Source of the DNA: an uncultured Eubacterium sp. | GTDB lineage: Bacteria > Bacillota > Clostridia > Oscillospirales > Acutalibacteraceae | Length of the DNA stretch: 50,419 bases | Direction: 5' to 3' | NCBI GenBank assembly: GCA_944385025.1 | Contig: CALWVQ010000005.1 | Coordinates: 1 to 50,419, forward strand | In this document: in pieces, positions 5,514-43,133 of the stretch | Layout: every line of letters begins with the position of its first letter | Numbering within the stretch: position 1 is the stretch's first letter | Notes under the pieces: generated by a model | What the model saw: only the letters and a program-made list of their open reading frames with translations | What the model was told of the DNA's origin: nothing | Databases searched by the model: none | Position numbers and translations under genes: made by a program

Positions 5514-5866
5514 TGGTGGAGTTGGTGGTAATCGAAACCACGTCCAAAATCATCTCGCCAAGGGCTCTACGAGTGTAGTTTGTCTTTTAGATTATCCCTT
5601 CAATTAACGGCGGCAAACAGCCTTTAATCTTCAGTATCCTCTATTACCTGATGAAAGCCGAGGAGCTCAATCATTCATGTTCGCCACTAAGTCGATGCCC
5701 TGTCTGCAACCGTGGCACTTTGCAGAAGGACACAAGCTGCTAATTAAGCAGCAAGAGCAACTGATGTTTTTTTGTCAGTTAATTTTAAGGTGTTACTTTT
5801 AAAGTGGTGCAACTCCACTACTCGCTGACCAAGGTTCAACGACCCTGTCGAAATCCTTTCAACCCC
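5514..5866 (-). ncRNA. ssrA: Transfer-messenger RNA (tmRNA)
   Basis: The minus strand starts GGGGTTG (5866-5860) and ends CAACTCC-ACCA at 5514, giving a 7-bp acceptor stem with one G-U pair and an encoded CCA. A T-arm (GTGGT-TTCGATT-ACCAC) precedes it. The 5' part has the conserved TTTCGACAGGG. The tag frame follows TAACT: resume codon GAC (5774-5776), reading DKKTSVALAA and stopping at TAA (5744-5746). With the charged alanine the predicted tag is ADKKTSVALAA, aligned by analogy with the B. subtilis tag that starts after the same TAACT. It rescues stalled ribosomes with SmpB, whose gene ends 12 bases upstream. Confidence 0.95.
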
Positions 5867-9100: not shown

Positions 9101-9235
9101 CTTATTTCATAATGTAACGCACAGACTTGTCTGCGGCGCACAGAATAATCCACTTATTGCTGCTCGGTTCCCCGCCTGACAAGGTTCGTAGCACTCTGTC
9201 GCACAGGGCCCGCGCGCTACATTATGAAATAAGGA
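9101..9235 (-). ncRNA. ffs: Signal recognition particle RNA
   Basis: On the minus strand a roughly 19-bp terminal helix joins TTATTTCATAATGTAGCGC (9233-9215) to its complement at 9120-9102. At the apex is the SRP domain IV: GTCAGG, then CGG-GGAA-CCG closing a GGAA tetraloop (9168-9171), then AGCAGC. This is the Ffh-binding element. At about 135 bases it is intermediate between the short 4.5S type and the long Bacillus type, and I have not folded the remainder. Location just upstream of dnaX is as in Bacillus. Confidence 0.9.
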
Positions 9236-14710: not shown

Positions 14711-14724
14711 AGATTTTTAATTAA

Positions 14725-14760
14725 AAAAGCTCCTCAGGATTTAACCTGAAGAGCTTTTTT
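14725..14760 (-). terminator. Terminator at the end of the phage-like operon
   Basis: The stem AAGCTCcTCAGG/CCTGAaGAGCTT (about 14728-14757) lies between A and T runs immediately after the last phage-like gene. Confidence 0.85.
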
Positions 14761-15242
14761 TATCTAAACATTACATAGTGATATGTAATTCCGCTTTCAT
14801 TGAAATTCATATATTCTTTTTCAATTACAGGCATAGACGTCTGGCGAACAGTAAGAGTTACCATATCGTCAGAAAACTCAATGCCCGACGTACATGCCAA
14901 CAGGCTGAAAAATCCAAAATAATTTGACTGCTGAGGTGTGGAAAATCTTGCTATTGACGGCGGTCTGTTATTTGCAAATATTATACCGAATCTTGCAGGG
15001 AAAGGACATTCAGTATCTATTTTTCGTTCAAGCTGACCGTCACCGAAATATGTCCCTTCGTGCATAACGTTATCCCATCTAAATCTTTCCTCGCTGTTTA
15101 CATGGGAAACAGCATCTTCCTTATGCTCGGTAATCACCTTATCGAGCACCTCATTGTCATAGTTAAAATCGGTGCGTTTAGGTTTATCCGATCCTATCCA
15201 GCTGTTGAGCTTTAAGTTTTCAGTTTTGTTTGTACTGCTCAT
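14760..15242 (-). CDS. Short phage tail-fibre-like protein
   Basis: This 160-residue protein is the last gene of the phage-like operon. The N-terminal segment LNSWIGSDKPKRTDFNYDNEVLDKV with a following H-x4-VSHV(N)SEER...W resembles the attachment segment at the front of clostridial phage tail-fibre or collar proteins. The rest, with GTYFGDGQLERKID and an aromatic beta-rich end, is a short domain; there is no long repeat shaft or recognisable receptor-binding tip. ATG has AAAGGAA upstream. The assignment rests on position and the N-terminal pattern. Confidence 0.6.
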   Translation of the reverse strand: MSSTNKTENLKLNSWIGSDKPKRTDFNYDNEVLDKVITEHKEDAVSHVNSEERFRWDNVMHEGTYFGDGQLERKIDTECPFPARFGIIFANNRPPSIARFSTPQQSNYFGFFSLLACTSGIEFSDDMVTLTVRQTSMPVIEKEYMNFNESGITYHYVMFR

Positions 15243-15256
15243 ATCTATTCCTTTCT

Positions 15257-15811
15257 TTATGTCATTTGCTCAAGCAAATCAAAAGGCAAATCTATATTGT
15301 CGTAGTCCTGAAAAAGAAACGCTGTTGCGTCCCATCTGTCAAAAGTTGCACCGTCTCCCAAAAAGCCCGTTGCAGTACAGGGCGGAATCATTTCATTTAT
15401 AACCTTTGAAAGCTTTTTTAAATCAAAGTCCGTGTCAAAACGGTTTAGATTAAAAGTCATTTCAAATCTGCCTGTTAATGCTGTAAGTTCAGGAGAAATG
15501 TCTGCAAGAGCATAATATATATCATTAAGCTTATAATCGCCGTATACCTGCGACAGCCTTTTGATTACCTGATTTCTTTTTTCCTCTTCCTCAAGAGTGC
15601 TGTCCACCCCTGTCATTTCGCAAAAAAGGGACAGTCCGATAGAGGAAGCCTCATAAACATTCATTTCTTTTACGGCTTGGGAAAAAGAATTTAAAACGCA
15701 CTCTATCCCTTTTTCGTATGCTGCAAGTTCAGCGCTGTCAACAGAGTTTTCGCTCAAATCAGCTCCAAGCATTTCAAAAAGAGAGGAAAGTCTGTTTTTA
15801 TAATCATTCAT
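15257..15811 (-). CDS. Phage tail protein I-like (YmfQ/XkdU, DUF2313)
   Basis: The 184-residue protein starts at an ATG that overlaps the end of the baseplate J gene. The layout MNDYKNRLSSLF...Y-x-KGIECVLN, an acidic helix with RNQVIKRLSQVYG, then LKKLSKVINEMIPPCT resembles the YmfQ/XkdU group, which sits immediately after baseplate J in PBSX-like myoviruses and contributes to baseplate wedge-fibre joining. The WDATAFLFQDYD tail is short. Position in the cluster is the strongest support. Confidence 0.7.
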   Translation of the reverse strand: MNDYKNRLSSLFEMLGADLSENSVDSAELAAYEKGIECVLNSFSQAVKEMNVYEASSIGLSLFCEMTGVDSTLEEEEKRNQVIKRLSQVYGDYKLNDIYYALADISPELTALTGRFEMTFNLNRFDTDFDLKKLSKVINEMIPPCTATGFLGDGATFDRWDATAFLFQDYDNIDLPFDLLEQMT

Positions 15812-16877
15812 CAAAACAGTTCACCACCAAATCACTTAAATGAAGGCAGTTTTCACCCGAACAATTCACAACCTCACCCAGCGCCTGATTGGAATACACG
15901 TTAAATATACTTATACCGTCAATTTTGATCAGCTGCTTTGAAATTGTGTTCAGTGAAAGAGGCTCACCGATTTTAAGTGCAGAACACACTTCGTTTACCG
16001 CCTGTGAAATTTGATTTTCTATTTCTGTTTTATCAAAGCCGTAACGAACATTTGCTTCAACTACAACAGTGAAGTCTTCTTCGCCGCATACAACTACCTC
16101 CACAGAGGCTCCCACAAGTTCTGCAAAACCCAAGGCGTCCTGAATTTCATATTTTTGTCTCGGTTCGAGTTCTCCTGTCTTTGTTTTGACAATAACAGTT
16201 ATTTTTCCTGATGTTTGGGATAAAAACACATTACAGTCAACTATATACTCAAGATTCATAATCACATTTTCCACCGACTGACAACTTACGCCGTTTGCCG
16301 GCATTGCATAGTGATTTAATATTCTTATTCGCAGAGAAGCATCGCTTTCCTCGTTGCAACCTCCTGTAAACTCTTGACTGTTTACCACACTGTATATACT
16401 CGTAGGTGCGTTTACCATAACCGTAACCTGATTTGCTTCTACATTGTATTCTTCTCCTTCTCCGAGTGCCGTCACCGCGGCAGTTACATTTAGACTTCCT
16501 GCCTCTAAAACCGTCTCGCTGTCCGTAGCAAATTGAAGATAAGGCTTTGCATATACGGAGCAAACAGTGCCTTTAGGTATGATAATATCTTCCTCAAGCG
16601 GTTCTATTACGGAAAAAGTCACCTCTCCTGCTGATGATGAAGCTGTTTTTCTTGTTACTCCTCTGAGTTGGGCGTGGTAGTCAAGATATTTCCCCGTTGC
16701 CGTTTGAACAAACGCTTGTTTAAAAATATAGTCGCCGTAACAAGACAATGAATAAAGCTCGCTGGCTACCGCCTCAAGTCTTTTGGCTGTTTCGCTGTCT
16801 TCCAAAAGAGTTTCACCCGTAACAGAAAAATAACTGTTTTTCATTTGAGTTACAAGGTCATTAAAAGTCAAATTCAT
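15804..16877 (-). CDS. Baseplate J/gp47-like protein
   Basis: The 357-residue protein matches the baseplate J family (XkdT, Mu gp47). It contains SAVASELYSL-like helices, YLDYHAQLRGVTRK near 65, EPLEEDIIIPKGT near 95, GEEYNV near 137 and FTGGCNEESDASLRIRILNH near 170-190, where the family has a GG-D-E-sD-e-LR-R pattern. It forms the wedge of contractile-tail baseplates. Start and stop overlap both neighbours (ATGA with the gp25 gene). Together with gp25 it shows the element derives from a contractile-tailed phage. Confidence 0.88.
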   Translation of the reverse strand: MNLTFNDLVTQMKNSYFSVTGETLLEDSETAKRLEAVASELYSLSCYGDYIFKQAFVQTATGKYLDYHAQLRGVTRKTASSSAGEVTFSVIEPLEEDIIIPKGTVCSVYAKPYLQFATDSETVLEAGSLNVTAAVTALGEGEEYNVEANQVTVMVNAPTSIYSVVNSQEFTGGCNEESDASLRIRILNHYAMPANGVSCQSVENVIMNLEYIVDCNVFLSQTSGKITVIVKTKTGELEPRQKYEIQDALGFAELVGASVEVVVCGEEDFTVVVEANVRYGFDKTEIENQISQAVNEVCSALKIGEPLSLNTISKQLIKIDGISIFNVYSNQALGEVVNCSGENCLHLSDLVVNCFDE

Positions 16878-17149
16878 AAAGTAATTTTCACCTGCCTTTG
16901 CTGGTCATTAATAAGTAAAGTAAAAATTGCTTGAGCGCCGTTTATCTGAACATTTTTGACGTATACTCCGTCAATGTCGTTTACCGCCTGTCTTGCGTAT
17001 GCCAAAAGCTCAGGCGCTGTGGAGTGACTGACGTTTTCAAGAATTTGAGAGCCAAAATTTTTATCGGGATAATATTTGCCTCTTGGGCATTTTATTGCCG
17101 CAACGCAGTTTTTAAGAATATTATCTGTACTGATACTTTTATCTGTCAC
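16874..17149 (-). CDS. gp25/gpW-like baseplate protein
   Basis: The small 91-residue protein has the gp25-like layout: a helix with VAAIKCPRGKYYPDKNFGSQI, where the family has a (Y/F)-x-P-D-x-x-(F/Y)GS signature, then ELLAYARQAVNDIDGVYVKNVQI and a beta-strand end. gp25 proteins sit in the baseplate wedge of contractile tails and seed sheath assembly. The start is GTG 17149, inside the end of the upstream gene. Presence of gp25 without a sheath gene is notable. Confidence 0.75.
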   Translation of the reverse strand: MTDKSISTDNILKNCVAAIKCPRGKYYPDKNFGSQILENVSHSTAPELLAYARQAVNDIDGVYVKNVQINGAQAIFTLLINDQQRQVKITL

Positions 17150-17501
17150 TTACTATCACCCCGTCCCTGTTAATCTCAAGCCCGTTAATAATAACGCTGC
17201 CGTCGTTTTTAAGATAAATATATCCTCCGGATTCAGATGTGATTTTTATCTCCCCTGTTTTCAGTCCCTTAGCCGCCATTGTAACGCCTATTGCCGTTTG
17301 CTGTGCGTCGCAGTGAGTAAGAATAAGACTTTCACCGGCAGGTAGAGAAAAGCAGTAGCCGTAAGGGGAGCACAGCTTTACGCCTCTCTCGCTGCCTGCA
17401 GAAACGCCGTTATCCTCACCTGTATTATTCAGTGTTACTTTTGCCGTTTGAATAGGGGGAGTTTCCTGTTTTTCCTGTGCAAGCTGTCTGCTAATCCACA
17501 T
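17139..17501 (-). CDS. Small baseplate spike-like protein (gpV/XkdR-like)
   Basis: The 120-residue protein lies between the hub and gp25 genes, the usual place of baseplate assembly protein V or XkdR. After a charged N-terminus the sequence SPYGYCFSLPAGESLILTHCD resembles the OB-like core of the spike. The end, GEIKITSESGGYIYLKNDGSVIINGLEI, is a short beta-prism-like repeat as in phage spikes. It is much shorter than T4 gp5 or P2 gpV. Identification is from position and pattern, not a confident family match. Confidence 0.55.
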   Translation of the reverse strand: MWISRQLAQEKQETPPIQTAKVTLNNTGEDNGVSAGSERGVKLCSPYGYCFSLPAGESLILTHCDAQQTAIGVTMAAKGLKTGEIKITSESGGYIYLKNDGSVIINGLEINRDGVIVSDR

Positions 17502-18438
17502 AAGTTATCTCCTTTATATCAATTTCTTTTTTCAGCGTAAGTCTTGTTACTTCGCCGTTTTTGTCAAGAGTATACTTTTTTTCCGTAAGAATATAATCGT
17601 CATACTGACCTCCTGCCGATTTATACGAAAAGCGCTGATAAAGGCTGTCGCTTACAAAACCGCTTACCTTTATTTCAAGAATTTTATAATCCTCAAAATA
17701 TGATTTAAGCTTGTTTACGGCGCCGTTTTCTCTTTGCCATTGGGGCAGAGACTGTAAATTAAGATACTGAACCCTGTCAATACCTATTTCATCGCTTACA
17801 AGAGCCTTCATATTAAGCTTGTAGTCCGTATCTGAACTTAACTTTTTTACACACAGCCTTGAAACAGGCTCGCTTCTGTTTACTGTTGCGGTGCAAGACA
17901 ATACTTTATAATCATTAAGGCTTTTTATGTCACTGCTTTTTTCAAAGCATTTAAGCTCATTTTCAGGAGTTACATACATAACTTTGCCCGTTTTCAGCTC
18001 AACAAACTGTCTTATTGCCGCAAAACAGGAGTTGCCTTTTGTAACCTCATATTTATCGGTACTGACAACTTGGGGAAGGCAGTTTTTAAAGCCCTTATCT
18101 TTTGCCAAAGAATACCAAAGCTGTGCCGCAGTAGGACAATTATATGTAAACGGCAAAGCCTCATTGTCCACAAGAACAGCAGCCGACGAGCGGGCATAAA
18201 TGTAATTTTCAAAGCCGTTTTGGGTTTCTATTCTTTTTTGGCAGTCACATATTCCGCTAAACACAAGGTTACCGCCGTCAAAGGCGGCAACCCTGTCAAT
18301 TTCTTCAATAAAAACATTGCTTTTGAAATAGAAACACAAACTGTCGCAAGCTACTTTTGCAGTTTGGGTAAAATTTATCTCACAAAGTTCAAGATTGCTG
18401 TATTCTTTGTTATCAATGGTAAAAATGCTTATTTTCAT
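17491..18438 (-). CDS. Phage baseplate hub protein (gpD/XkdQ-like)
   Basis: The 315-residue protein resembles the late-control D/XkdQ hub group by position after the LysM protein and by layout. It begins with a beta-rich first domain (residues about 1-90), then PTAAQLWYSLAKDKGF, NSCFAAIRQFVELKTGKVMYVTPENELKCF near 130-160, and a final ILTEKKYTLDKNGEVTRLTLK. That last pattern occurs where such hubs close the second barrel. It should form the trimeric platform under the spike. ATG overlaps the preceding stop (ATGA). Confidence 0.75.
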   Translation of the reverse strand: MKISIFTIDNKEYSNLELCEINFTQTAKVACDSLCFYFKSNVFIEEIDRVAAFDGGNLVFSGICDCQKRIETQNGFENYIYARSSAAVLVDNEALPFTYNCPTAAQLWYSLAKDKGFKNCLPQVVSTDKYEVTKGNSCFAAIRQFVELKTGKVMYVTPENELKCFEKSSDIKSLNDYKVLSCTATVNRSEPVSRLCVKKLSSDTDYKLNMKALVSDEIGIDRVQYLNLQSLPQWQRENGAVNKLKSYFEDYKILEIKVSGFVSDSLYQRFSYKSAGGQYDDYILTEKKYTLDKNGEVTRLTLKKEIDIKEITYVD

Positions 18439-18941
18439 CTTAATACCACCCTGTCGTTTTCTTCTATGTCAAAAGGCGTTATCAAATCATTTAACGTCAT
18501 TATATCGTCAACACTCACGCCGTTTTCAAAAGCAATATCAAAAGCATTCTGTCCTTCGGAAGCATACACAAACGAAAGATTCTCCGTTTCTGACTTTTGG
18601 GTACAGTCCTCCACAAATTTAAAGCCGTATGAATAAGACTTGCTTTTTGAGCTTTGCTGCCATTCAAAATCAGTAAGGAACGCTTTTATGGGAACAATAC
18701 AGGGTGCAAAAAGCCACCCCGACGTCTTTTCACGAAGCATTTTTTGCAATCTTGTGCAAGCTTCCAGTCCGTCGTCGCCGTAAAACTCCCCGCTTCCCTC
18801 CACAGTGGCAGGATTTATACTGACGTTTTCAACAACGCTGTTTTTTCCCGGCTGTGCTCCGGAATGGCAGTTAGACGTTATTCCGGCTTTGATAACTCCG
18901 GGGTTTGCAGGAAATTCAAAATTTTTAAATTTCATTTTCAC
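18435..18941 (-). CDS. LysM-containing baseplate protein (XkdP-like)
   Basis: The 168-residue protein has an N-terminal domain (KFKNFEFPANPGVIK, then VSINPATVEGSGEFYG) and a C-terminal LysM-like module. In that module SFVYASEGQNAFDIAFENG, DDIMTLND and ENDRVVLR carry the LysM spacing. In PBSX/skin elements XkdP sits just after the tape measure and before XkdQ; here the tape measure is absent and a 29-codon ORF precedes. The start is GTG 18941 directly after that ORF; ATG 18935 is an alternative. Confidence 0.75.
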   Translation of the reverse strand: MKMKFKNFEFPANPGVIKAGITSNCHSGAQPGKNSVVENVSINPATVEGSGEFYGDDGLEACTRLQKMLREKTSGWLFAPCIVPIKAFLTDFEWQQSSKSKSYSYGFKFVEDCTQKSETENLSFVYASEGQNAFDIAFENGVSVDDIMTLNDLITPFDIEENDRVVLR

Positions 18942-19031
18942 TTACATTACCCCCGACGTCTTATCATATCGTTTTTGTTCAAGTCTCAGCACCTCGCTGA
19001 TTTCCTCTGCACGATTAATTTCTTCGTTCAT
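18942..19031 (-). CDS. 29-residue ORF at the missing sheath/tube/tape-measure position
   Basis: ATG 19031 follows the stop of the upstream gene directly and has an excellent GGAGGTG ribosome site 6-7 bases upstream. The peptide is MNEEINRAEEISEVLRLEQK and nine more residues (RYDKTSGVM), mostly an amphipathic charged helix. It stops at TAA (18942-18944), and the next gene starts on the following base. No family is recognised. It could be a real small structural or assembly protein, or a remnant fused across a deletion of tail genes. Confidence 0.6.
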   Translation of the reverse strand: MNEEINRAEEISEVLRLEQKRYDKTSGVM

Positions 19032-19433
19032 TTAAGCACCTCCGAAATCCAACATATCCTTAAAGCACACACTTGTAGCCAAAAGATACGCCTGTGTTTG
19101 ACTTTCATAAGTCATCCTGCCAGCTGTGACAGACAAAACATTGTAACAAGACAAAATTTTGCAAATATTAATGAAAATTTCCTGTGCATTCATGGCATCG
19201 TTATCTACGGGAACAAATATATCAGCAAAAATTTTTATTTCTCCGCTTCTGCCGTTTTCATCAATACTGTCTGAGGAAAGCTCAACGCTGTCAATTCCTA
19301 AAGCAATAACCGGATTGGCAAGACGAACAGGCTTTATTTTATTTTCATACGCCATAATAATCTTGACGCCTTGAAAAAGACTGCTTTTTGAGATTTTCTC
19401 TTTTATTTCATCTAATATTTTATCAATAATCAA
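19032..19433 (-). CDS. Phage tail-terminator/minor tail protein (XkdJ-like position)
   Basis: The 133-residue protein begins IIDKILDEIKEKI and continues KIIMAYENKIKPVRLANPVIALGID. This helix plus beta-sheet arrangement is like small tail-terminator or tail-completion proteins of siphoviruses and myoviruses. The start appears to be TTG 19433 with AAGGGAGAG upstream, 11 bases inside the previous gene. Position (last head-tail joining gene before the tail genes) supports a terminator role. Sequence-level recognition is weak. Confidence 0.55.
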   Translation of the reverse strand: MIIDKILDEIKEKISKSSLFQGVKIIMAYENKIKPVRLANPVIALGIDSVELSSDSIDENGRSGEIKIFADIFVPVDNDAMNAQEIFINICKILSCYNVLSVTAGRMTYESQTQAYLLATSVCFKDMLDFGGA

Positions 19434-19779
19434 GACTGTTCTCTCCCTTCAGCTTTCTCAGAATTCCGGTATAATAAACAACTTTACCGCCAAAAACTAC
19501 TTTGTCCCTGCACTTAAAAACAAATACTTCACCATCCCACAAAAGAGTTGCACTGTCGGATAAATCGCAGATATTATGACTATACGGACCTATGTAAAGA
19601 TAATAATCTTTTGAAATTTCACCCAATTCAGTAAAATCCGGTTCAAAATCCGTACTTTTCTTACGCCAAAGATGAGATATACAGGCATTAAAAGCCATTG
19701 ATGTCCAATCCCCGTCGCACAAATATACCTGACTGCCTATTTTATCAAGCTGTGACTTTATCAATATTTCATTTTTCAT
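19423..19779 (-). CDS. Minor head-tail joining protein
   Basis: The 118-residue protein begins MKNEILIKSQLDKIG and contains YLYIGPYSHNICDLSDSATLLWDG then VFKCRDKVVFGGKVVYYTGILR. The pattern of a small beta-barrel with a YIGP-like turn occurs in head-completion or XkdI-like proteins of PBSX-type elements. ATG 19779 is preceded by AGGACGGTG and starts one base after the previous stop; longer frames overlap the upstream gene. Annotated mainly by position between the gp6-like connector and the terminator-like gene. Confidence 0.55.
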   Translation of the reverse strand: MKNEILIKSQLDKIGSQVYLCDGDWTSMAFNACISHLWRKKSTDFEPDFTELGEISKDYYLYIGPYSHNICDLSDSATLLWDGEVFVFKCRDKVVFGGKVVYYTGILRKLKGENSLDY

Positions 19780-19780
19780 A

Positions 19781-20137
19781 TCACACCGTCCTAAAAACAA
19801 AGACGTCTGTGTTGAGTACGGTTGCACAGTCGTTAAGCGCTGTTTTATAAAGTTCCTTTGCATTTGGCAATGCCGAAATGTCCCTTTCAAACGACACGTC
19901 ACCTGCTTTAAATGAGGTAACGCCGTCGTTTGAAGAATTTGTCATATTAATTTGATAATATGCCTTTGCAGCACAAAGGAAAACCACTCTGCCGTCGTTT
20001 TCATCCTCTGGTTTTTTCAGCAAAGGCTCAATACAGGATACAGCATTGCTGATATAGGTTTCATACTCTTCAACCTGACTGTCATCGCATTGTAAAAGAC
20101 TTTTAAGCTGTTCTTTAACTAAGCTGTAATCCGTCAT
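19781..20137 (-). CDS. Head-tail connector protein (gp6-like)
   Basis: The 118-residue protein is mostly helical: YSLVKEQLKSLLQCDDSQVEEYETYISNAVS, then FLCAAKAYYQINMTN and a FERDISALPNAKELYKTALNDC end. This fits the gp6/XkdH-type head-tail connector, which forms a ring below the portal. It follows the capsid gene with AAAGGAG as ribosome site, in the order usual for HK97-type head modules. Confidence 0.7.
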   Translation of the reverse strand: MTDYSLVKEQLKSLLQCDDSQVEEYETYISNAVSCIEPLLKKPEDENDGRVVFLCAAKAYYQINMTNSSNDGVTSFKAGDVSFERDISALPNAKELYKTALNDCATVLNTDVFVFRTV

Positions 20138-20149
20138 AACTAATCTCCT

Positions 20150-21145
20150 TTAGTTGCCGCCCATAATTACTGTCTTAATTGCATCTTCATACAAAACAGA
20201 GAAGCCAACAATCGTAGAAATTGTTGCTCTTTCAAGCTGACGGTCAATCAGCTTGTCAAATTCTGTGATTATTCCGCCTGCCTGTACTTTTTCGAGAGCG
20301 TAATTCTTGTCAATACCCACCATAACGTTATCCTCATCTCTGCCGTAACAGAAGAAATTGATACCAAGGGGGCTGATGAGATTTCCTGAAGAAATAAGCT
20401 CGTTACCTTTTAAGGAATCGCTTATTTCAGGGATACACAAAATATTTGTGAGCATAGTCTTACTTGCCACAACAGTATTAAGCTTGTATGGCAAAAAGCT
20501 TGCCCAGAACTGAATTAACTGATTATAGGTAATAGCGTCTCCCTGCATTTCAAAATTCTGAATTGGCAAATCGCTTTTTGAAATGGCTACAACTGCCTGC
20601 TCAAATTCGCTGGCGGCAATGCTGTCGCCTATTTTCTTAAGCATAGTTGTGAAAAGGTCAAGTTTCTGATACTTGATAGCCTCGTATGATGCAACAAGCA
20701 TTCTGCCGTGCTTTTTAAGCTCTGTAAGCTTATCGTTAAGAGAAATTGTAAGCTCGGGAAGTGTTGCACCCTCTTCCACCTCTTGAAGAGTGAAATCCAT
20801 ATCCTCACAGAAGATTGATCTGTAATCAAGGCTGTCAATCTGTGTGGTTGTGGCAACAATATCGTTAGCTGAATAGCCGTTTTCAATTCCCAGATGTACC
20901 GCACGTGAAACGTATTCCGGGAAAAGTGCGGCTGAATCGGTTGTAGCAAAGAATTTTGCAACCGGGTCTGAATTTACGCCTGAAACCTTAATGTCAAATC
21001 TTTTGAGCTGTCTTTCGTAAGCGTCAAGGCCCTCAAGAGAAGTGCCCACATAGTTTTCAGAAGGGTCAAGCTCTTCAAGAGCCTGTGTGAATGACTTGCC
21101 TGTTGTATAAAGTCCTTTTTCAAGTCTAATGTTATCAAATGCCAT
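20150..21145 (-). CDS. Major capsid protein (HK97-fold type)
   Basis: The 331-residue protein follows the protease gene, the standard place for the capsid. It has SAALFPEYVSRAVHLGIENGY near 70-90, a long E-loop-like region LTISLNDKLTELKKHGRMLVASYEAIKY near 140-170, then VVASKTMLTNILCIPEISDSL and LISPLGINFFCYGRDEDNVMVGIDKNYALEKVQAGGIITEFDKLI. The last block is the usual P-domain/A-domain ending, where capsids carry a G-P-V hinge, strand and final helix. It has an excellent ribosome site AGGAGG. Confidence 0.85.
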   Translation of the reverse strand: MAFDNIRLEKGLYTTGKSFTQALEELDPSENYVGTSLEGLDAYERQLKRFDIKVSGVNSDPVAKFFATTDSAALFPEYVSRAVHLGIENGYSANDIVATTTQIDSLDYRSIFCEDMDFTLQEVEEGATLPELTISLNDKLTELKKHGRMLVASYEAIKYQKLDLFTTMLKKIGDSIAASEFEQAVVAISKSDLPIQNFEMQGDAITYNQLIQFWASFLPYKLNTVVASKTMLTNILCIPEISDSLKGNELISSGNLISPLGINFFCYGRDEDNVMVGIDKNYALEKVQAGGIITEFDKLIDRQLERATISTIVGFSVLYEDAIKTVIMGGN

Positions 21146-21162
21146 AATTTAATTTCCTCCTA

Positions 21163-22128
21163 TTATAATTTAAACTGGTCATTTTTTGCTTTTTTAGCTG
21201 TCTGGGGTGTAAGCTGGGGAAGAAAAGATTCTTGGTCTTTTGACTTTAAAAACGCCGTTTTAAATCCCAAAAGCTCCTTGGTTGTCATAACCTGTGCCAC
21301 ACTGCCAAAAATATTAATATCCATCTGCGGCAATGCCTTTGAACAAAGTCCCACAACCTCGGCGATAAGACTCTTTTTGTAATCTCTGCCCAGCTTTGCC
21401 TCTTCCTCAAGAGCAGAAATATGGTCGGCAATTTCAGCCGCCTGCGCCTTTGAAAGAGTAATGCCGTCGCTGCAGCTTTTCAGCGTATCAATTACGTTTT
21501 TCATCATATTATCATCATCCTTTAATCCGTTAAAAGACTTTGTCACCCCTGCCTCACGCTGTGCAGGAACAGCAACAAAGCTGAATTCATAAGCATCGCT
21601 GACGTCGCTTAAAACAGAATACGCCAGCTTGCCGTCATAGCTTTTGCCGTTAATATGCTCACAGTAAGTGCTGCGCTTGTCATTAGAGCATATGGAACAA
21701 ATACTTTTTTTCATTGAGCAGGATACAGACACTTCTTTCTTTATTCCTGCTTCAATTTCTTTAATAAGGGGCATATTTTCGTCGGTTTTAACCATATAAG
21801 CTTTAGCCTTAAGCTGATAAAGGTCCTCGCCGTCCTGAGTTTTTCTGCCGTTAACCTTTTCAACCCACGTGTGAAAAATTCTTGCTTTTTGGTCGGCGGA
21901 TTTCATTGAGTGGTCGCATATACCCGTTTTGCCCAAAAATTTGTCGCAAAGCTGATAGAGCGACTCGACGGAAAACTTTTCGTAATCTCTGTCAATATTG
22001 TTATCACAGAGAATCACGCTGAAGGCATAAAGCTCGTCTGACTTAAATTCTGTTCTTGTAAATTGATTGATTTTTTCTAAATCCCCGTCTTCAAGAACAA
22101 AACTTTTTTCAATAAAGCCCTCCTGCAT
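21163..22128 (-). CDS. Phage prohead protease with C-terminal scaffold-like region
   Basis: The 321-residue protein has a herpesvirus/HK97-like serine protease fold: YAFSVILCDNNIDRDYE near 34-50, candidate catalytic H73 (GICDHSM) and Ser 135 or 138 (EVSVSCSM), then YEFSFVAVPAQREAGV. Between Ser and the last strand lies C144-x2-C147-x8-C156-x-H158, a likely zinc knuckle. The C-terminal about 110 residues (helices with ISALEEEAKLG) look like a scaffold that would be removed on maturation. It lies between portal and capsid, as expected. Confidence 0.8.
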   Translation of the reverse strand: MQEGFIEKSFVLEDGDLEKINQFTRTEFKSDELYAFSVILCDNNIDRDYEKFSVESLYQLCDKFLGKTGICDHSMKSADQKARIFHTWVEKVNGRKTQDGEDLYQLKAKAYMVKTDENMPLIKEIEAGIKKEVSVSCSMKKSICSICSNDKRSTYCEHINGKSYDGKLAYSVLSDVSDAYEFSFVAVPAQREAGVTKSFNGLKDDDNMMKNVIDTLKSCSDGITLSKAQAAEIADHISALEEEAKLGRDYKKSLIAEVVGLCSKALPQMDINIFGSVAQVMTTKELLGFKTAFLKSKDQESFLPQLTPQTAKKAKNDQFKL

Positions 22129-22129
22129 A

Positions 22130-23251
22130 TCAAATCTCCTTTTCTATTTTTTTAGCCTGAGCAAGATAAAGTCTTGCCTGTGCGCTGTCGCACTGATCCT
22201 GAAGAGTAATGTCATCCCACACTACCTTTACCCTGCTGTTAATACCGTTAAGAGACAAGTACAAATTGCCTATCTTTGAAATTACGGGAGTAAGCACTCT
22301 GCGGTAAGATTCCAGTTCGGTGGTAAGAATATCCGCCTGTTGAGTACTCATACGCTCGGTAGACGACCAGCTGAGTCCAAGCATAAACGGCGGTATTCCC
22401 AGTTTTGCAACAATCTGTTCCAAAAGCTGACGAACGGGAATTTCGCTGTCAAGGCACACATTATCTGCGCCTATTACCTGAACGCTCACGTCACCCACAG
22501 CAACAAAATCCTTAACCGAGCTGCTGTCCATTGCCTCTTTCCACGCCTGTGCAATATTTTCGGCACGCTGTTTTGCTGTCTGACTGTCAGCCATGTCGCC
22601 GTCAGTCTTGCAGGTAACGGCATACCTTACATTTCCTGCGTGTTCCCAGTTGCTGCCTATGGTATTATAAATTTTCATAAGAATATCACTTACAAAAGGC
22701 AGACCCTGCAAGATACTTGTGCCGCACAAATCGTTAGGCTTCGGATTTAATACGGAATACAAAATAAGCGACGGATTTGCAATAGGCTTGTTGGAGTTAT
22801 AAAAATCAACGTCAATACCGTTTGCCGCTCTTTTAAGCTCAATTTCAGATAAATCACTGTTATATAGAGCGTAAATACCGCTTTTACCCAAAACTATCTC
22901 TCCTATCGCTGTTCCGAAAGTAAGAAGCTGATTAAGGTAGTTTGATACGAAAGCCGAGAGTCCCTGCTGATTTCCGCCTACATTTATACTTTCAAAATAA
23001 TCGCTTATCTGTCTGTCCGTTTTTTCACTGCCTGTTTCAAAATGAAAGCCCTCTGTAAGCCGTACAATTTTATTCAAAGCAGCATCAATAATCGGAACTG
23101 CCTGTCTTAACTGCAGATAAACTCTCGTATCTAAATTCATAGGCATATAAGACGCAAGCTGATAATATGGGTGTTTACTGCCTGAGGAGGTTTGAACCGA
23201 TGTGGCAGTTAATTCACTGCCTTTTTTCTTTTTAAGATTTAGTAAGCCCAA
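22130..23251 (-). CDS. Phage portal protein
   Basis: The 373-residue protein is a portal of the HK97/PBSX type. It shows YLQLRQAVPIIDAALNKIVRLTEG near 46-69, an internal wing around IGEIVLGKSGIYALYNSDLSEI, IYNTIGSNWEHAGNVRYAVT near 195 and AKLGIPPFMLGLSWSSTERMSTQQAD near 285-310. That last block is the hallmark tunnel-loop region. Dodecameric portals pass DNA into and out of the head. The start is TTG 23251 with AAAGGA upstream, 4 bases after the terminase stop. Confidence 0.88.
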   Translation of the reverse strand: MGLLNLKKKKGSELTATSVQTSSGSKHPYYQLASYMPMNLDTRVYLQLRQAVPIIDAALNKIVRLTEGFHFETGSEKTDRQISDYFESINVGGNQQGLSAFVSNYLNQLLTFGTAIGEIVLGKSGIYALYNSDLSEIELKRAANGIDVDFYNSNKPIANPSLILYSVLNPKPNDLCGTSILQGLPFVSDILMKIYNTIGSNWEHAGNVRYAVTCKTDGDMADSQTAKQRAENIAQAWKEAMDSSSVKDFVAVGDVSVQVIGADNVCLDSEIPVRQLLEQIVAKLGIPPFMLGLSWSSTERMSTQQADILTTELESYRRVLTPVISKIGNLYLSLNGINSRVKVVWDDITLQDQCDSAQARLYLAQAKKIEKEI

Positions 23252-23255
23252 ATCC

Positions 23256-24515
23256 TCAATTCCTTTCTATTGCAACGGATGCAAAGCCTGCGCCGTCTTG
23301 TTTTTCCTGCATAACAGTTGAAACAAAATAGCGCATATCGTCCATTGCGTGATCGTTTTCTTTTTTTACAGCGTCCTTTTTTATACTGTTATCCCAGCGA
23401 TAAACAGAAAACTCTCTGATAATATCAGCACAGCAGGGATAAAAGTATATTTCATCGTTTTTCAGCGCCTGACAAACTCGGTTAATACCTGTCGAAACAT
23501 TATTGTCCGCCTTAACAACACGGTACTTTCCGTGACGGCGCACTGTTTGAATAAAGGACGCTGCGGAAGGGTCGATTATAACCGCCTCTATTTTTCTGCC
23601 CTGTGCCAGCTTAACAAGAGCCTGATAATATTCTTCGTCTGTAAGCTGAACGCCTTTGTCTCGGCTTGAGTGGTAGTACTCGTCAATTCTGTACCAACCG
23701 TCTGTGCCCTCTCCCCAAACGCCCAAAGAAAAGGGATTTACTGTGCCGTAGTCGCAGGACATATAAAAGCGTTTAAACGTGCCCTCATATTTTCTTATGT
23801 GTCGGTTGGCGTCGAACATAGGATAAACAAGTCCGTCTGCCGTCACCCACCTGCCCTCCACAAAGCGCTCATAAAAAGCACCTGAATAAAGGCTTTTGTA
23901 TCGGTTTTTCACTGTTTCTGAAAGGGAGGGGTTATCCTCCATTGAAAAATGCAGGTAAAGTACATTTTTCTCCTTATGCTTTTTTATCCACTCAACATAA
24001 AACCAGTGATAAGGATGCTCGGGATTGCAGTTAAAGAAATACTTGGCGTTTTCAAGGGAACATCGGGCAATCGCCTGTTCCACAAAAGAGCGTGGCATAA
24101 GAGCTACCTCGTCAAGCATAACGCCGCCTAATGTCATACCCTGAATAAGTGAGGCAGAAGATTCGTCTCTTCCTCCGAATAGAAAAAACTTATTCGTCTG
24201 TCCGCCTTTTGAAATTTCAAGATAGTTTCTGCTTATTTTAAAATCGCAGGAAAAACCCAAATCGTTTAAAACAGGCAAAAGGGGTGTAATCACATTTCGT
24301 CTTAATGAGGAAATCGTTTTTCCGCATAAAGCAAAAGATGTGTTGCTGAAAGCATAAAACGACCAGCATATAAAAGAGATGCTCATACAAAGTGTTTTTC
24401 CGCTTCTTACAGCGCCGTCGCAGATAATCCCGTTTTTATCACAATGAGCGCTGTTTTTGCACCACCAGTTCAAAACCTTAAGCTGTTTTTTTGAAAAGGG
24501 CACGAATTTAGTCAT
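23256..24515 (-). CDS. Terminase large subunit (PBSX type)
   Basis: The 419-residue protein is complete. It has Walker A DGAVRSGKTLCMS near residue 32-44, a coupling region GGRDESSASLIQGMTLGG, Walker B GVMLDEVALMP near 130, and the RNase H-like nuclease with CDYGTVNPFS near 245, VIIDPSAASF near 320 and NDHAMDDMRYF near 392. All catalytic acidic residues appear present, so DNA packaging and cleavage seem possible. ATG 24515 overlaps the end of the small-subunit gene and has GAGGATG upstream. A longer frame from 24749 is a shadow of the small subunit. Confidence 0.92.
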   Translation of the reverse strand: MTKFVPFSKKQLKVLNWWCKNSAHCDKNGIICDGAVRSGKTLCMSISFICWSFYAFSNTSFALCGKTISSLRRNVITPLLPVLNDLGFSCDFKISRNYLEISKGGQTNKFFLFGGRDESSASLIQGMTLGGVMLDEVALMPRSFVEQAIARCSLENAKYFFNCNPEHPYHWFYVEWIKKHKEKNVLYLHFSMEDNPSLSETVKNRYKSLYSGAFYERFVEGRWVTADGLVYPMFDANRHIRKYEGTFKRFYMSCDYGTVNPFSLGVWGEGTDGWYRIDEYYHSSRDKGVQLTDEEYYQALVKLAQGRKIEAVIIDPSAASFIQTVRRHGKYRVVKADNNVSTGINRVCQALKNDEIYFYPCCADIIREFSVYRWDNSIKKDAVKKENDHAMDDMRYFVSTVMQEKQDGAGFASVAIERN

Positions 24516-24843
24516 AAGCATCATCCTCACTGCTCTGACTTGAAGCAGACGCACTTTTCTCCAGCGCCTCGTAAAAGGAAACAGCAGTCTGTTTGCCGTT
24601 GTCAGCCACTGCGTTTCCCAGCTTTTCCAGAGCCTTGAGCCTGTCAAAAAATTTAATTTCCATTCCTCCGCCCTTAACTCTTTTAATTTCGCTGACATTA
24701 AAAAGATCAAGATTGGGCAGATTTTTAAGTATTTCGTCTTCAGTTTCAAAAAGAAGCGTTACTGCATCCTGTATTTCTCCAAAGGCAAGGCGCCTGAAAC
24801 CTTCCGTAACGTCTTTTTGAGTAATCTTTTTTCTTCTTGGCAA
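24508..24843 (-). CDS. Terminase small subunit-like protein
   Basis: The 111-residue protein is the first gene of the operon. It begins PRRKKITQKDVTEGFRRLAFGEIQDAVTLL with a helical DNA-binding-like N-terminus, then a KGGGMEIKFFDRLKALEKLGNAV segment like the Terminase_2/small-subunit helical region, and an acidic tail. The start appears to be TTG 24843 with GGAG 9 bases upstream; there is no suitable ATG. Overlap with the large subunit by 8 bases supports the assignment. Confidence 0.75.
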   Translation of the reverse strand: MPRRKKITQKDVTEGFRRLAFGEIQDAVTLLFETEDEILKNLPNLDLFNVSEIKRVKGGGMEIKFFDRLKALEKLGNAVADNGKQTAVSFYEALEKSASASSQSSEDDAYD

Positions 24844-24878
24844 TCCATCATCTCCAAACCGATATTTTTATGCAGAGC

Positions 24879-24917
24879 AAAAACGCCCTACACTAATGGT
24901 CAGTGCAGAGCGTTTTT
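24879..24917. terminator. Hairpin in front of the phage-like operon
   Basis: AAAAACGCCCTACACT (24879-24894) pairs with AGTGCAGAGCGTTTTT (24902-24917), with two wobble positions. It has T-runs on both strands, so it can terminate in either direction. TGCAGAGC occurs twice (24871-24878 and 24904-24911) flanking GCCCTACA, so an alternative hairpin is possible. Confidence 0.7.
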
Positions 24918-24986
24918 ATTCATATTCGGCGCATAAAACAGGCACAAAATGCAAAAATAAATATTTTAAATCCTAATTATTCAATA

Positions 24987-25015
24987 TTGACGAATAACCG
25001 CTGCTTTGATATTAT
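24987..25015 (+). promoter_or_regulatory. Promoter of the zinc-ribbon gene pair
   Basis: TTGACG (24987-24992) and TATTAT (25010-25015) are separated by 17 bases, 28 bases before ATG 25044. Confidence 0.75.
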
Positions 25016-25043
25016 AAATTTAGCAATAGAAAAGAGGGGTATT

Positions 25044-25478
25044 ATGTATTGCAAAAACTGCGGCGCTTTTGTTGATGACAGGTGTTATTACTGCGGTAAT
25101 TGCAAATCACCTACTGAAAAAGAAGTACATTGGAATGCATACGACAAACAAAATACCTACTGTTTTAATCCTAATTCAGTCAATACATTTGACGCTGAAA
25201 ATGACAGGCTGATTGAAAATGCCGAAAAATTTTCGTTTCTTTCAATCGTTTTAGGAATTATGATAAGCGGTATTGTAGGAATGGTTTTTTCTATTTTAAG
25301 CAGTAAAAAGCTTAGCAAAATCCCATATAAATATAAAATGAATAACTTAAAGGATGTTAAAACTATAAAATTTTTAAATGCCTGTGGATTTATCATATCC
25401 TTTTTACGATTTGCCTATTTTGCTTACGTTATAGCAGGATTTTTTGCAATCGTATTTTTAATGGATGGTATGTCATAG
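25044..25478 (+). CDS. Zinc-ribbon membrane protein, paralog 1
   Basis: The 144-residue protein begins MYCKNCGAFVDDRCYYCGNC, a zinc ribbon with two CxxC pairs. A polar linker follows and then three hydrophobic segments (about 69-88, 107-122 and 123-140) with basic KKLSKIPYKYKM between. The layout matches zinc-ribbon/DUF4190-like small membrane proteins in Firmicutes, whose function is unknown. AGAGGGG precedes the ATG. It is followed after 15 bases by a close paralog. Confidence 0.75.
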   Translation: MYCKNCGAFVDDRCYYCGNCKSPTEKEVHWNAYDKQNTYCFNPNSVNTFDAENDRLIENAEKFSFLSIVLGIMISGIVGMVFSILSSKKLSKIPYKYKMNNLKDVKTIKFLNACGFIISFLRFAYFAYVIAGFFAIVFLMDGMS

Positions 25479-25493
25479 AAAAGAGGGAGAAAT

Positions 25494-25952
25494 ATGTACT
25501 GTAAAAACTGTGGTAAATTAATTGACGACAACTGCTACTACTGTGACGGCTGCGGTGCGGCTGTTGAAAAAAATACAAATTGGAACGGATACAGCAATAA
25601 CGCTTATCAAAACCCGTATGCCAATCAGCCGAGTAATTTTGATGTTTGCAACAATTACCAATCTGCCGAAATTGACAAAAAAATAGAAGACGGCAGGACT
25701 TTAGGCATACTTGCAATAATTCTCGGTTTGCTTGTAAGCTCTATAGTAGGATTAATTTTAGGCATCGTTGGTATGGAAAAATTAAAAGACATTAACTTTA
25801 ATATGAATTATCTTCAGACCAGCAAGTATAATGAGGCTAAAAATCTTAACAAATGGGGAATTATAATACCTATTGTCAGATTTGTTTTGATGATATTGCT
25901 TTTTATATTATACTTTGTTTTTGTCATTGGAGTAGCCGCCACCGTTTCTTAA
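25494..25952 (+). CDS. Zinc-ribbon membrane protein, paralog 2
   Basis: The 152-residue protein begins MYCKNCGKLIDDNCYYCDGC, with the same ribbon as its neighbour. An Asn/Tyr-rich linker (about 27-55) and membrane segments near 71-90 and 122-148 follow. The ILAIILGLLVSSIVGLILGIVGMEKL segment is the DUF4190-like first pair. Tandem duplication with strong similarity at the ribbon and divergence in the linker is clear. A terminator follows. Function is not known. Confidence 0.75.
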   Translation: MYCKNCGKLIDDNCYYCDGCGAAVEKNTNWNGYSNNAYQNPYANQPSNFDVCNNYQSAEIDKKIEDGRTLGILAIILGLLVSSIVGLILGIVGMEKLKDINFNMNYLQTSKYNEAKNLNKWGIIIPIVRFVLMILLFILYFVFVIGVAATVS

Positions 25953-25953
25953 C

Positions 25954-25990
25954 AAAAAATAAGCGATGCAAAATGCACCGCTTATTTTTT
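25954..25990. terminator. Bidirectional terminator
   Basis: AAAAAATAAGCG and CGCTTATTTTTT pair with an inner TGCA/TGCA step, between the convergent zinc-ribbon and LytM genes. Confidence 0.85.
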
Positions 25991-26702
25991 ATTCTGTTTT
26001 GCCCATTGCGTCAAGGGGATTAACGCTTTTACCGTCTACCGTAACCTCAAAATGAAGGTGACTGTCGCTGTTTGACTCAAAGGGGACAACGCCTAATGTG
26101 CCTATTGCCTGTCCCATAGTAACATAATCTCCTGCTGAAACGTTTACCGTTTCAAGTCCGCAGTATTTTGCCACCATTTTGCCGCCGTGGTCAATTTCTA
26201 CTACCTTTCCCAAAAGATTATCATCTGTAACAGAAAGTACAAGTCCGTCGTTAACTGACTGTATCTTTGCGCCCTTATCGCACTTAAAATCTACTGCCGG
26301 GTGAGAACGGTAGTCACCCATTGTATCGTTTTTCACAAGTTCTTCTGTATAACCGTTTAAAACAGTTTCAGAACAAGGATACTTGTAAAAAGACTTATAC
26401 GGAGTGTTTGTGTCTCCCTGCTCCATAGTAGGTTTTTCAGTTGTTGTTTCCTTATCCGCCTTGGTAGTAGTTTCTTTTTTCTCGGTTTCGGTTTCTTTTA
26501 CCGTAACCTGCTTTTGAACCTCGGTAGTAAGTTCTTCAGTTGTTGACTGAGTTTCTTTAACCGTGGTTGCTTCATTTACCTGGGTATTATCTGCGCTTTG
26601 TGTTGAAAAATATACTATAAGACCCAGCGCAATAATGCACAGGCATATTACTGAAAACAATGCTCTTAAGTTTTTGTTATTCGGTTTATCTTTTGTTGCC
26701 AT
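25989..26702 (-). CDS. M23 (LytM) peptidase-domain membrane protein, SpoIIQ-like
   Basis: The 237-residue protein has a short cytoplasmic start, one membrane helix (about 12-35), a Thr/Glu/Lys-rich linker (about 40-100) and a C-terminal LytM domain. Metal ligands are visible: HPAVD near 140 and HLHFEV near 217. Size and topology resemble SpoIIQ, the forespore protein that pairs with SpoIIIAH during engulfment; clostridial SpoIIQ keeps its zinc ligands. No spoIID neighbour is present, so it may instead be another envelope hydrolase. ATG 26702 has GAGGTG upstream. Confidence 0.7.
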   Translation of the reverse strand: MATKDKPNNKNLRALFSVICLCIIALGLIVYFSTQSADNTQVNEATTVKETQSTTEELTTEVQKQVTVKETETEKKETTTKADKETTTEKPTMEQGDTNTPYKSFYKYPCSETVLNGYTEELVKNDTMGDYRSHPAVDFKCDKGAKIQSVNDGLVLSVTDDNLLGKVVEIDHGGKMVAKYCGLETVNVSAGDYVTMGQAIGTLGVVPFESNSDSHLHFEVTVDGKSVNPLDAMGKTE

Positions 26703-26756
26703 ATAAAACACCTCAAAAGCATTATTGACCGAATAATAAAAAATATACATTTTTGC

Positions 26757-26785
26757 TTGAAATTGCAATTAGATTATAGTAATAT
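26757..26785 (+). promoter_or_regulatory. Promoter of the MFS gene, probably leaderless
   Basis: TTGAAA (26757-26762) and TAATAT (26780-26785) are 17 bases apart. The ATG is at 26795, only 9 bases after the -10 element, and no ribosome site is present between. Confidence 0.7.
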
Positions 26786-42913: not shown

Positions 42914-42964
42914 TTACTATACCTCCATAAAAATTTGCCACTAAAGTGGTCTTTATGGCTGTCA

Positions 42965-43105
42965 GCTATAAAAAAGTGCATTCCAAAGAATGGAATGCAC
43001 GTAACAATCAAATTAACAAATAAGCTATTTGAAAGTTCATTCCTCGGTAGGCGGTAAACTTACGCATAAAATGCACCTACTGTCTTTGGCTGAACAGCTA
43101 TTGTA
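42965..43105 (-). promoter_or_regulatory. L10 leader RNA with attenuator
   Basis: On the minus strand are AGACAGTAGGTGC, CCGCCTACCGAGGA and AATGAACTTTC in the order seen in L10(L12)4-binding leaders. They are followed by the attenuator GTGCATTCC/GGAATGCAC (42976-42984 with 42992-43000) and TTTTTT. Free L10-L12 would favour termination and reduce rplJL expression. Confidence 0.85.
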
Positions 43106-43133
43106 TTTTAACACAGGGAAAACTCCCTGTCAA
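43105..43133 (-). promoter_or_regulatory. rplJ-rplL promoter
   Basis: TTGACA (43128-43133) and TAAAAT (43105-43110) are 17 bases apart. A small inverted repeat (ACAGGGA/TCCCTGT, 43113-43130) lies in the spacer and may be a weak rplA terminator. Confidence 0.8.

Follow-up and report, generated by a model that had tools for sequence, protein, structure and literature searches.

A minus-strand phage operon in the genome of an uncultured Eubacterium sp. is best explained as a domesticated, vertically inherited phage-particle operon, most likely a gene-transfer-agent (GTA)-like DNA packager, a reading to which we give a probability of roughly two in three. It lies at positions 14760–24843 of the window, the 50,419-nucleotide stretch of DNA analysed here, and consists of 15 genes plus one 29-codon ORF (Table 1). 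The packaging, head, neck and baseplate classes are all represented and intact. Judged from its sequence, the operon probably makes small particles carrying the bacterium's own DNA.

A first-pass annotation of this DNA had described a phage-like operon with packaging, capsid and baseplate genes but neither sheath nor tube, and both domain evidence and family-specific profiles bear this out. Its gene order and placement stand, while its count is corrected to 15 genes plus the 29-codon ORF. As it had also stated, the genes are open, many overlapping by a few bases, and a terminator, here located and bidirectional, ends the operon. Reading of the operon content together with domain profiles revealed no replication, integration or repressor genes, again in agreement, and no lysis gene was recognised within the operon. 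PF05105, the single holin family tried, occurs in seven of 40 genus genomes; the window's genome lacks it. The flanks of the operon are chromosomal genes. The leader hairpin has 10 pairs, five of which show compensatory changes among 10 sequences of the window's subclade.

Table 1 Features of the operon, listed by descending window position.
Feature	Position	Strand	Basis
Leader hairpin and T tract, candidate attenuator	24878..24918	(-)	directly upstream of TerS
TerS, small terminase without N-terminal HTH, start TTG	24508..24843	(-)	Pfam Terminase_2
TerL, large terminase	23256..24515	(-)	Terminase_6N 3e-13; phrog_2 3e-51
Portal protein	22130..23251	(-)	phrog_30703 E 4e-126; Pfam match below cut-off
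XkdF-like prohead protease/scaffold	21163..22128	(-)	function by position; phrog_16951 2e-87 (unknown function)
Major capsid protein	20150..21145	(-)	Phage_capsid_4 3e-10; phrog_3922 5e-74
Head-tail connector/adaptor	19781..20137	(-)	position; weak phrog_132 head-tail adaptor match, E 0.09
Joining gene 1 (neck, head closure by position)	19423..19776	(-)	position; conserved in genus
Joining gene 2 (tail terminator by position)	19032..19433	(-)	position
29-codon ORF, motif S[ED]...L[DE]..R[YF][DE]	18942..19031	(-)	conserved motif
LysM baseplate protein (XkdP-like)	18435..18941	(-)	LysM Pfam match below cut-off
Baseplate hub, Mu gp44-like	17491..18438	(-)	3d37 (Mu-type 43 kDa/gp44 hubs), E 3e-8
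Spike, Mu gp45-like	17139..17501	(-)	9ki1_V E 1e-4
gp25-like wedge protein	16874..17149	(-)	position only
Baseplate J	15804..16877	(-)	PF04865 1.6e-32
Tail protein I	15257..15814	(-)	placed between J and fibre genes; conserved
Short fibre-like protein, 160 aa	14760..15242	(-)	function by position
Operon-end terminator, bidirectional	14723..14760		limits read by eye

The translation of TerL shows GAVRSGKT, LDE and aspartates, which we take to be the ATPase motifs and nuclease residues, respectively; its start is probably at 24515, not at 24749, where the ORF opens. The match of TerS to Terminase_2 spans only profile positions 58–128 of 141, and the N-terminal helix-turn-helix (HTH) domain, whose absence the first-pass annotation overlooked, was not detected by an HTH profile in any of the 57 genus loci having TerS. 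A small terminase without a specific DNA-binding domain, as in RcGTA, would fit non-specific packaging. Loss of the HTH is not defining for the family, since many relatives retain it (20 of the 33 with TerS in the rest of family f1 and 13 of 14 in f26).

The names of the connector, the two joining genes, the gp25-like protein and tail protein I were assigned from position. PDB-sequence and hhalign searches gave no identity for the connector and joining genes; phrog_25177, a group of unknown function, was matched by 11 of 41 members of the joining gene 2 family, the window's own not among them. The gp25-like protein has one weak match (E 0.06), and the N-terminus of the fibre-like protein a stronger one (phrog_33092, 4e-7), both to phrogs of unknown function. 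The LysM protein aligns almost end to end with an XkdP-like phage LysM protein (E 1e-7).

The Pfam sheath model PF04984 does not score the operon family's own sheath, whose sole match was to PF17482 (two proteins tried, one below cut-off), and the sheath test was therefore redone with the family's own profile. Profiles built from the family's own sheath and tube, which recovered 8 of 8 and 6 of 6 held-out controls, respectively, gave no match in any of 60 genus genomes, nor in the genome of the window, which is 97.8% complete. PF04984 itself matches in only two of the 60 (G011 and G051), presumably in other prophages. The tube was assigned from its place, its conservation in the family and a weak match of 1 of 11 members to phrog_185; the family tube and sheath were not linked to one distant phage in searches of the hhalign and PDB-sequence type. 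The gap before LysM leaves no room for a tape measure. The first-pass annotation had suggested looking for orphan sheath and tube genes elsewhere; none of the operon's family was present in the 60 genus genomes, which leaves the option of a split gene-transfer agent unsupported.

The portal is present in 51 of 59 other genus species, in one place per genome with the single exception of a genome that has it in two pieces. Gene order is kept in 38 of 38 genus loci and all 15 genes are matched in 33, the remaining five stopping at a contig end; coaX/DUF1015 adjoin the operon in 22 of the 31 genus loci with enough downstream sequence. In 29 of the 33 complete loci, each gene spans 80% or more of its model as a single open frame, and in the other four some genes fall below this value, reflecting assembly error, divergence or decay. 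Where computable (10 pairs × 15 genes), dN/dS was mostly 0.03–0.3, with every value obtained below 1 and all but one at or below 0.40; TerL is under the tightest constraint (0.03–0.13). Operon and rpoB trees of 34 species have 19 of 31 splits in common, against a mean of 0.26 and a maximum of 3 in 500 shuffles, and the Mantel correlation (r 0.71) was reached in 0 of 2000 permutations. The operon is dispensable, because 8 of the 59 genus species, four of them at least 95% complete, show no portal; five of these eight genomes were placed on the rpoB tree, where four form one clade.

On these comparisons the operon is vertically inherited, under purifying selection, present in one copy per genome and mostly at one site, which supports the domesticated packaging particle among the options raised by the first-pass annotation. 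That annotation had asked whether the gene order without tail genes recurs in related genomes, as it does, and had counted dN/dS near 1 and a full prophage in close relatives as evidence to the contrary. The values are far below 1, and tail genes are absent from all 38 genus loci, although they are present in other genera and families.

Across the order, 82 of 396 genomes contain a match to the portal profile, in each case a single one. Some relatives from other genera and families have sheath and tube genes within this operon, so the tail-less form appears to be derived; the tail genes were lost long ago in the genus, and this is not a fresh deletion. The relatives form a reduction series of operons with sheath and tube, with tube only and with neither. 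In one set of genomes scanned for Baseplate_J, the 16 that carry the short operon have no match, and G213, which lacks the operon, has one. Pieces of such operons are present in virus collections, where they are listed as phage contigs.

The 29-codon ORF looks real, given the GGAGGTG directly upstream and the genus-wide ORF with the same motif, found in all 51 genus loci having LysM in reach (some species entered twice; 40 distinct stretches, from a genus set of 61 loci). It occupies the site where full phages carry tube, chaperone and tape measure. In sheath- and tube-bearing relatives, the ORF before LysM encodes 54–289 aa in 24 of 28 cases and ends in the motif, which makes up most of the 29-codon ORF. 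A profile from these relatives matches 34 of 34 genus ORFs tested, all preselected by the R[YF] motif, with a weakest E of 0.04. Outside the genus, a motif ORF before LysM could not be found in 15 of the 44 loci with tube only, in 4 of the 28 with sheath and in 6 of the 11 with neither; L110, L212 and L280 were spurious calls and were left out of these counts and of the length test. We read the ORF as a probable remnant of the protein in the tape-measure position. The odds that it is instead an independent small gene of the baseplate or neck, or what is left of the second chaperone ORF, are somewhat short of even: the motif profile found no match among 17 proteins, tape measures among them, taken from two full phages, and both phages carry a 44–56 aa ORF between chaperone and tape measure. 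However, the longer motif ORF of sheath-bearing relatives directly precedes LysM, which is the tape-measure place, and in the gaps of relatives read out no other ORF is left as a possible tape measure.

Our best reading is that the operon is akin in kind to the Faecalibacterium FpGTA, compared here by description. The FpGTA report concerns gut Clostridia (Ruminococcaceae/Oscillospiraceae), demonstrates particles with ~9 kb DNA and no visible tail, called podovirus-like, and describes a TerS without obvious DNA-binding domain (PMC12946183). Both systems have TerS, TerL, portal, scaffold and capsid in one operon with no replication genes; the baseplate, fibre, RBP, holin and endolysin genes of FpGTA lie in a second operon, whereas here baseplate and fibre belong to the main operon and no lysis genes were found. 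The Terrisporobacter phage TPELB_ph1 (PP197244) shows the same general arrangement of head, neck and baseplate genes, but is a full phage record with sheath, tube, chaperone, 594-aa tape measure, integrase, holin and endolysin. RcGTA has a tail and belongs to another, alphaproteobacterial lineage. It is likewise a domesticated particle of a bacterial lineage, whose TerS lacks its specific DNA-binding domain (PMC7947584). Three GTA hallmarks legible in sequence are present in the operon: phage-derived structural genes unaccompanied by replication, integration or repressor genes, vertical inheritance under purifying selection and a TerS without DNA-binding domain.

In a GTA-like system of this kind, the host would express the operon under its own control via the candidate leader terminator, and TerL would fill a small capsid with host DNA without a pac site. 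The neck would dock straight onto the LysM-hub-spike baseplate, so that the particle would be stubby and podovirus-like and would contact cells through a short fibre. Its release and its delivery into sister cells are proposed by analogy only, and a different function of the particle could be what maintains the operon.

PBSX of Bacillus subtilis shares the gene order (terminase-portal-XkdF-capsid-connector...LysM-hub-spike-gp25-J-I) and has in addition sheath, tube, a long tape measure and lysis genes. It packages host DNA, as proposed here, and is reported to take up 13 kb of random host DNA without transfer and to act in a bacteriocin-like manner (PMC7667829). By that precedent the operon might specify a domesticated DNA-filled particle not for gene transfer, either a PBSX-like device for killing or lysis or else a DNA-disposal or storage body, which we consider unlikely: a contractile killing device, PBSX-like particle or tailocin needs a sheath and tube, which the family profiles did not find in any of the 60 genus genomes, and is rejected, and TerL is the most constrained gene.

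Head and packaging genes without tail genes are also the plan of cf-PICIs, and a capsid-forming satellite of that type would use helper-phage tails. Yet the operon brings its own baseplate, and the Pfam sheath model matches in only two of the 60 genus genomes; with no integrase or regulator recognised in the operon, a single copy, no sign of mobility and a tree that follows rpoB, we rejected this as very improbable. The gene order equals that of a PBSX/Mu-type phage minus one segment, as a recent defective prophage with an internal deletion might show. Against this, the same short gap and small ORF recur in every genus locus with LysM in reach, and portal spread, tree, dN/dS and conserved order rule out a recent, decaying remnant for the genus. 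The chance of this explanation, which the first-pass annotation had listed as a prophage deletion derivative, is negligible.

For the history of the GTA-like operon we tentatively propose, at a little under evens, that a short contractile phage was domesticated a single time in an order-wide lineage of gut-type Clostridia, its tail then being shortened step by step to zero rings. Sheath and tube would have been lost, and the tape measure would have shrunk from ~170 residues to a 29-residue peptide keeping only its baseplate-binding end. The TerS recognition domain would have been lost in several branches independently. The resulting GTA build would set the neck straight onto a contractile-phage baseplate, an arrangement that, to our knowledge, is known from no phage.

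Host-DNA packaging consistent with GTAs is reported as prominent in human-gut Ruminococcaceae and Oscillospiraceae, and a search of four genomes in that study yielded a strong candidate GTA operon in a single one, a Faecalibacterium (PMC12946183). The operon family described here supplies many more genera with a candidate gene set, along with profiles for detecting it. Its fragments are filed as phage contigs and may therefore distort virome surveys. With sibling lineages at several stages, the family is a graded natural series in the removal of a contractile tail with head and baseplate kept, and could serve to test the tape-measure rule at its lower limit.

The 50.4-kb window belongs to a 1.65-Mb assembly of 81 contigs that is 97.8% complete. 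The intact 15-gene phage-like operon described in the first-pass annotation was borne out, with every frame open, frequent small overlaps and a bidirectional terminator closing the operon. Family searches backed the small (TerS) and large (TerL) terminase subunits, portal, capsid and Baseplate J, with weaker backing for the LysM protein. When profiles of the operon family's proteins were used, the hub proved related to gp44 hubs of the Mu type, the spike to gp45 of Mu and the LysM protein, in an almost full-length alignment, to a phage XkdP-like protein; the connector, joining genes 1 and 2, gp25-like protein and tail protein I take their names from position.

Coordinates of the operon and other features in the window
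Feature	Position	Strand	Remarks
Operon	24843 down to 14760	minus	15 phage genes and 29-codon ORF
Leader hairpin and T tract	24878-24918	minus	Terminator-like, immediately upstream of TerS
Zinc-ribbon membrane-protein-like paralogues	24903-25952	plus	Two, adjacent, divergent from operon
M23 peptidase	25989-26768	minus	
tmRNA	5514-5866		Ordinary chromosomal feature
Small SRP RNA	9116-9215		Ordinary chromosomal feature
L10 leader	42961-43107		Ordinary chromosomal feature

The intergenic region upstream of the operon is conserved. Five of the 10 pairs in the leader hairpin show compensatory changes among 10 sequences from the window's subclade; since our scan missed the hairpin in many other genus loci, we treat it only as a lead towards a possible attenuator of the operon. 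The zinc-ribbon pair is retained next to the operon in part of the genus, and the M23 peptidase, SpoIIQ-like by our reading, is the upstream neighbour in several genus species.

The operon reflects domestication, not decay: the portal is widespread in the genus, gene order and frames are kept, dN/dS is low, the operon tree follows that of rpoB and most of the portal-less genomes placed on an rpoB tree cluster in one clade. Among the other 59 species in the genus, 51 gave a portal match, always at a single place (in genome G058 as two adjoining pieces). Recurrence of the tail-less gene order in related genomes, a point raised by the first-pass annotation, holds within the genus: the order is identical in all 38 genus loci laid out, with all 15 genes matched in 33 and the remaining five stopping at a contig end. 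Either coaX or its DUF1015 neighbour lies within 4 kb of the operon in 22 of the 31 genus loci that have the fibre gene and at least 2.5 kb downstream. Model coverage in a single open frame reaches 80% or more for every gene in 29 of these 33 loci, the exceptions being L035 (three genes), L230 (TerL), L053 (J and I) and L054 (I). Rather than lying near 1, the outcome that the same annotation had named as refuting, dN/dS in ten species pairs was 0.03-0.13 for TerL and mostly 0.04-0.3 for the other genes, some pairs yielding no value; the highest, 0.74, came from a single diverged pair, for joining gene 2, and every other value was at most 0.40, with many dS values close to saturation. A tree of TerL, portal and capsid and one of rpoB, both covering the same 34 species, had 19 of 31 splits in common (mean 0.26, maximum 3 under 500 label shuffles); the former recovered 15 of 17 strong rpoB splits and conflicted strongly in 1 of 408 comparisons. 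Eight genus genomes gave no portal match; of the five placed on an rpoB tree, four fall together as one clade within the genus, in line with a single clean loss, and the operon gene models were silent in six coaX neighbourhoods from portal-less genomes.

The gap at the tail shaft also stood up, with no sheath or tube gene of this family found in the genus genomes searched. The family's own sheath profile was silent in all 60 genus genomes and matched 8/8 held-out controls; its tube profile was silent in the same genomes and matched 6/6 held-out relatives. The generic Pfam sheath model matches 2 of the 60.

The 29-codon ORF, preceded by GGAGGTG in the window, has a core motif that approximates S[ED]...L[DE]..R[YF][DE], and an ORF with this motif occurs in all 51 genus loci with LysM in reach (40 distinct stretches). 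Among loci of relatives in other genera, the ORF immediately preceding LysM carries a C-terminal motif of the same kind in 24 of the 28 that have a sheath, where its median length is 170 aa (range 54-289), and in 29 of the 44 that have a tube only, where the median is 46 aa (range 25-75); this length difference has a Mann-Whitney P of 1e-9 when kinship is ignored. A profile built only from sheath- and tube-bearing relatives matched every one of the 34 genus ORFs tested, with E values from 8e-9 to 0.04; the 17 proteins of two phages gave no match (best E 0.75). The place directly before LysM, taken by the motif protein in sheath-bearing relatives, is that of the tape measure in full phages such as TPELB_ph1, from Terrisporobacter (594 aa); we therefore read the 29-codon ORF as a putative tape-measure gene that shrank along with the tail.

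Across the order, the portal profile gave exactly one match per genome in 82 of 396 genomes, from the window's family f1 (43 of the 52 listed) and families f14 (22), f26 (15), f15 (1) and f7 (1). In a midpoint-rooted tree of 91 loci, those of f1, f26 and f15 group family by family, and those of f14 group with the lone f7 locus. Tail content is graded among 74 loci outside the genus, some of the gene-poor ones being cut by contig ends (e.g. L233 and L234). Sheath and J occur together in 16 of 22 f14 loci. In f1 outside the genus, 20 of 37 loci have tube and J without sheath, six J only, ten none of the three and one a sheath; in f26, 5 of 14 have sheath and J and nine lack all three. Some loci (L246-L248, L262, L276 and others) comprise only the part from TerS to the neck or hub; Baseplate J was found nowhere in 16 genomes of this short type, searched genome-wide, and such loci possibly encode particles without any tail. 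The capsid gene precedes the protease-like gene, the inverse of the usual order, in L276, L279, L162 and L164, and a capsid match precedes the portal in L253. An eight-gene relative (L282) is carried by MT835508.1, filed as 'Bacteriophage sp.', which by our reading of its frames is a piece of bacterial chromosome with ribosomal proteins and Rnf-type genes. Portal relatives also occur on 26 IMG/VR contigs.

TerS in the window covers just the C-terminal half of Terminase_2, and no HTH was detected in any of the 57 genus loci carrying TerS. Many relatives retain it, with counts of 20 of 33 for f1 loci from other genera, 4 of 22 for f14 and 13 of 14 for f26, so its loss looks recurrent.

Beyond PMC12946183, no description of the operon family was found in an open-licence library. 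By description, the closest characterised system is FpGTA, the gene transfer agent of Faecalibacterium. Its particles are ~40 nm in size, lack a visible tail and contain ~9 kb of DNA, and its TerS is without an obvious DNA-binding domain (PMC12946183). A search covering one holin family found no lysis genes with the operon. The sequence shows conserved genes for assembling and filling a head and for making a baseplate, no recognised tail-shaft genes, and a TerS that lacks a recognition domain. Expression would be under host control, host DNA would be packaged by the headful, and the neck would attach directly to the LysM-hub-spike baseplate, giving a stubby particle.
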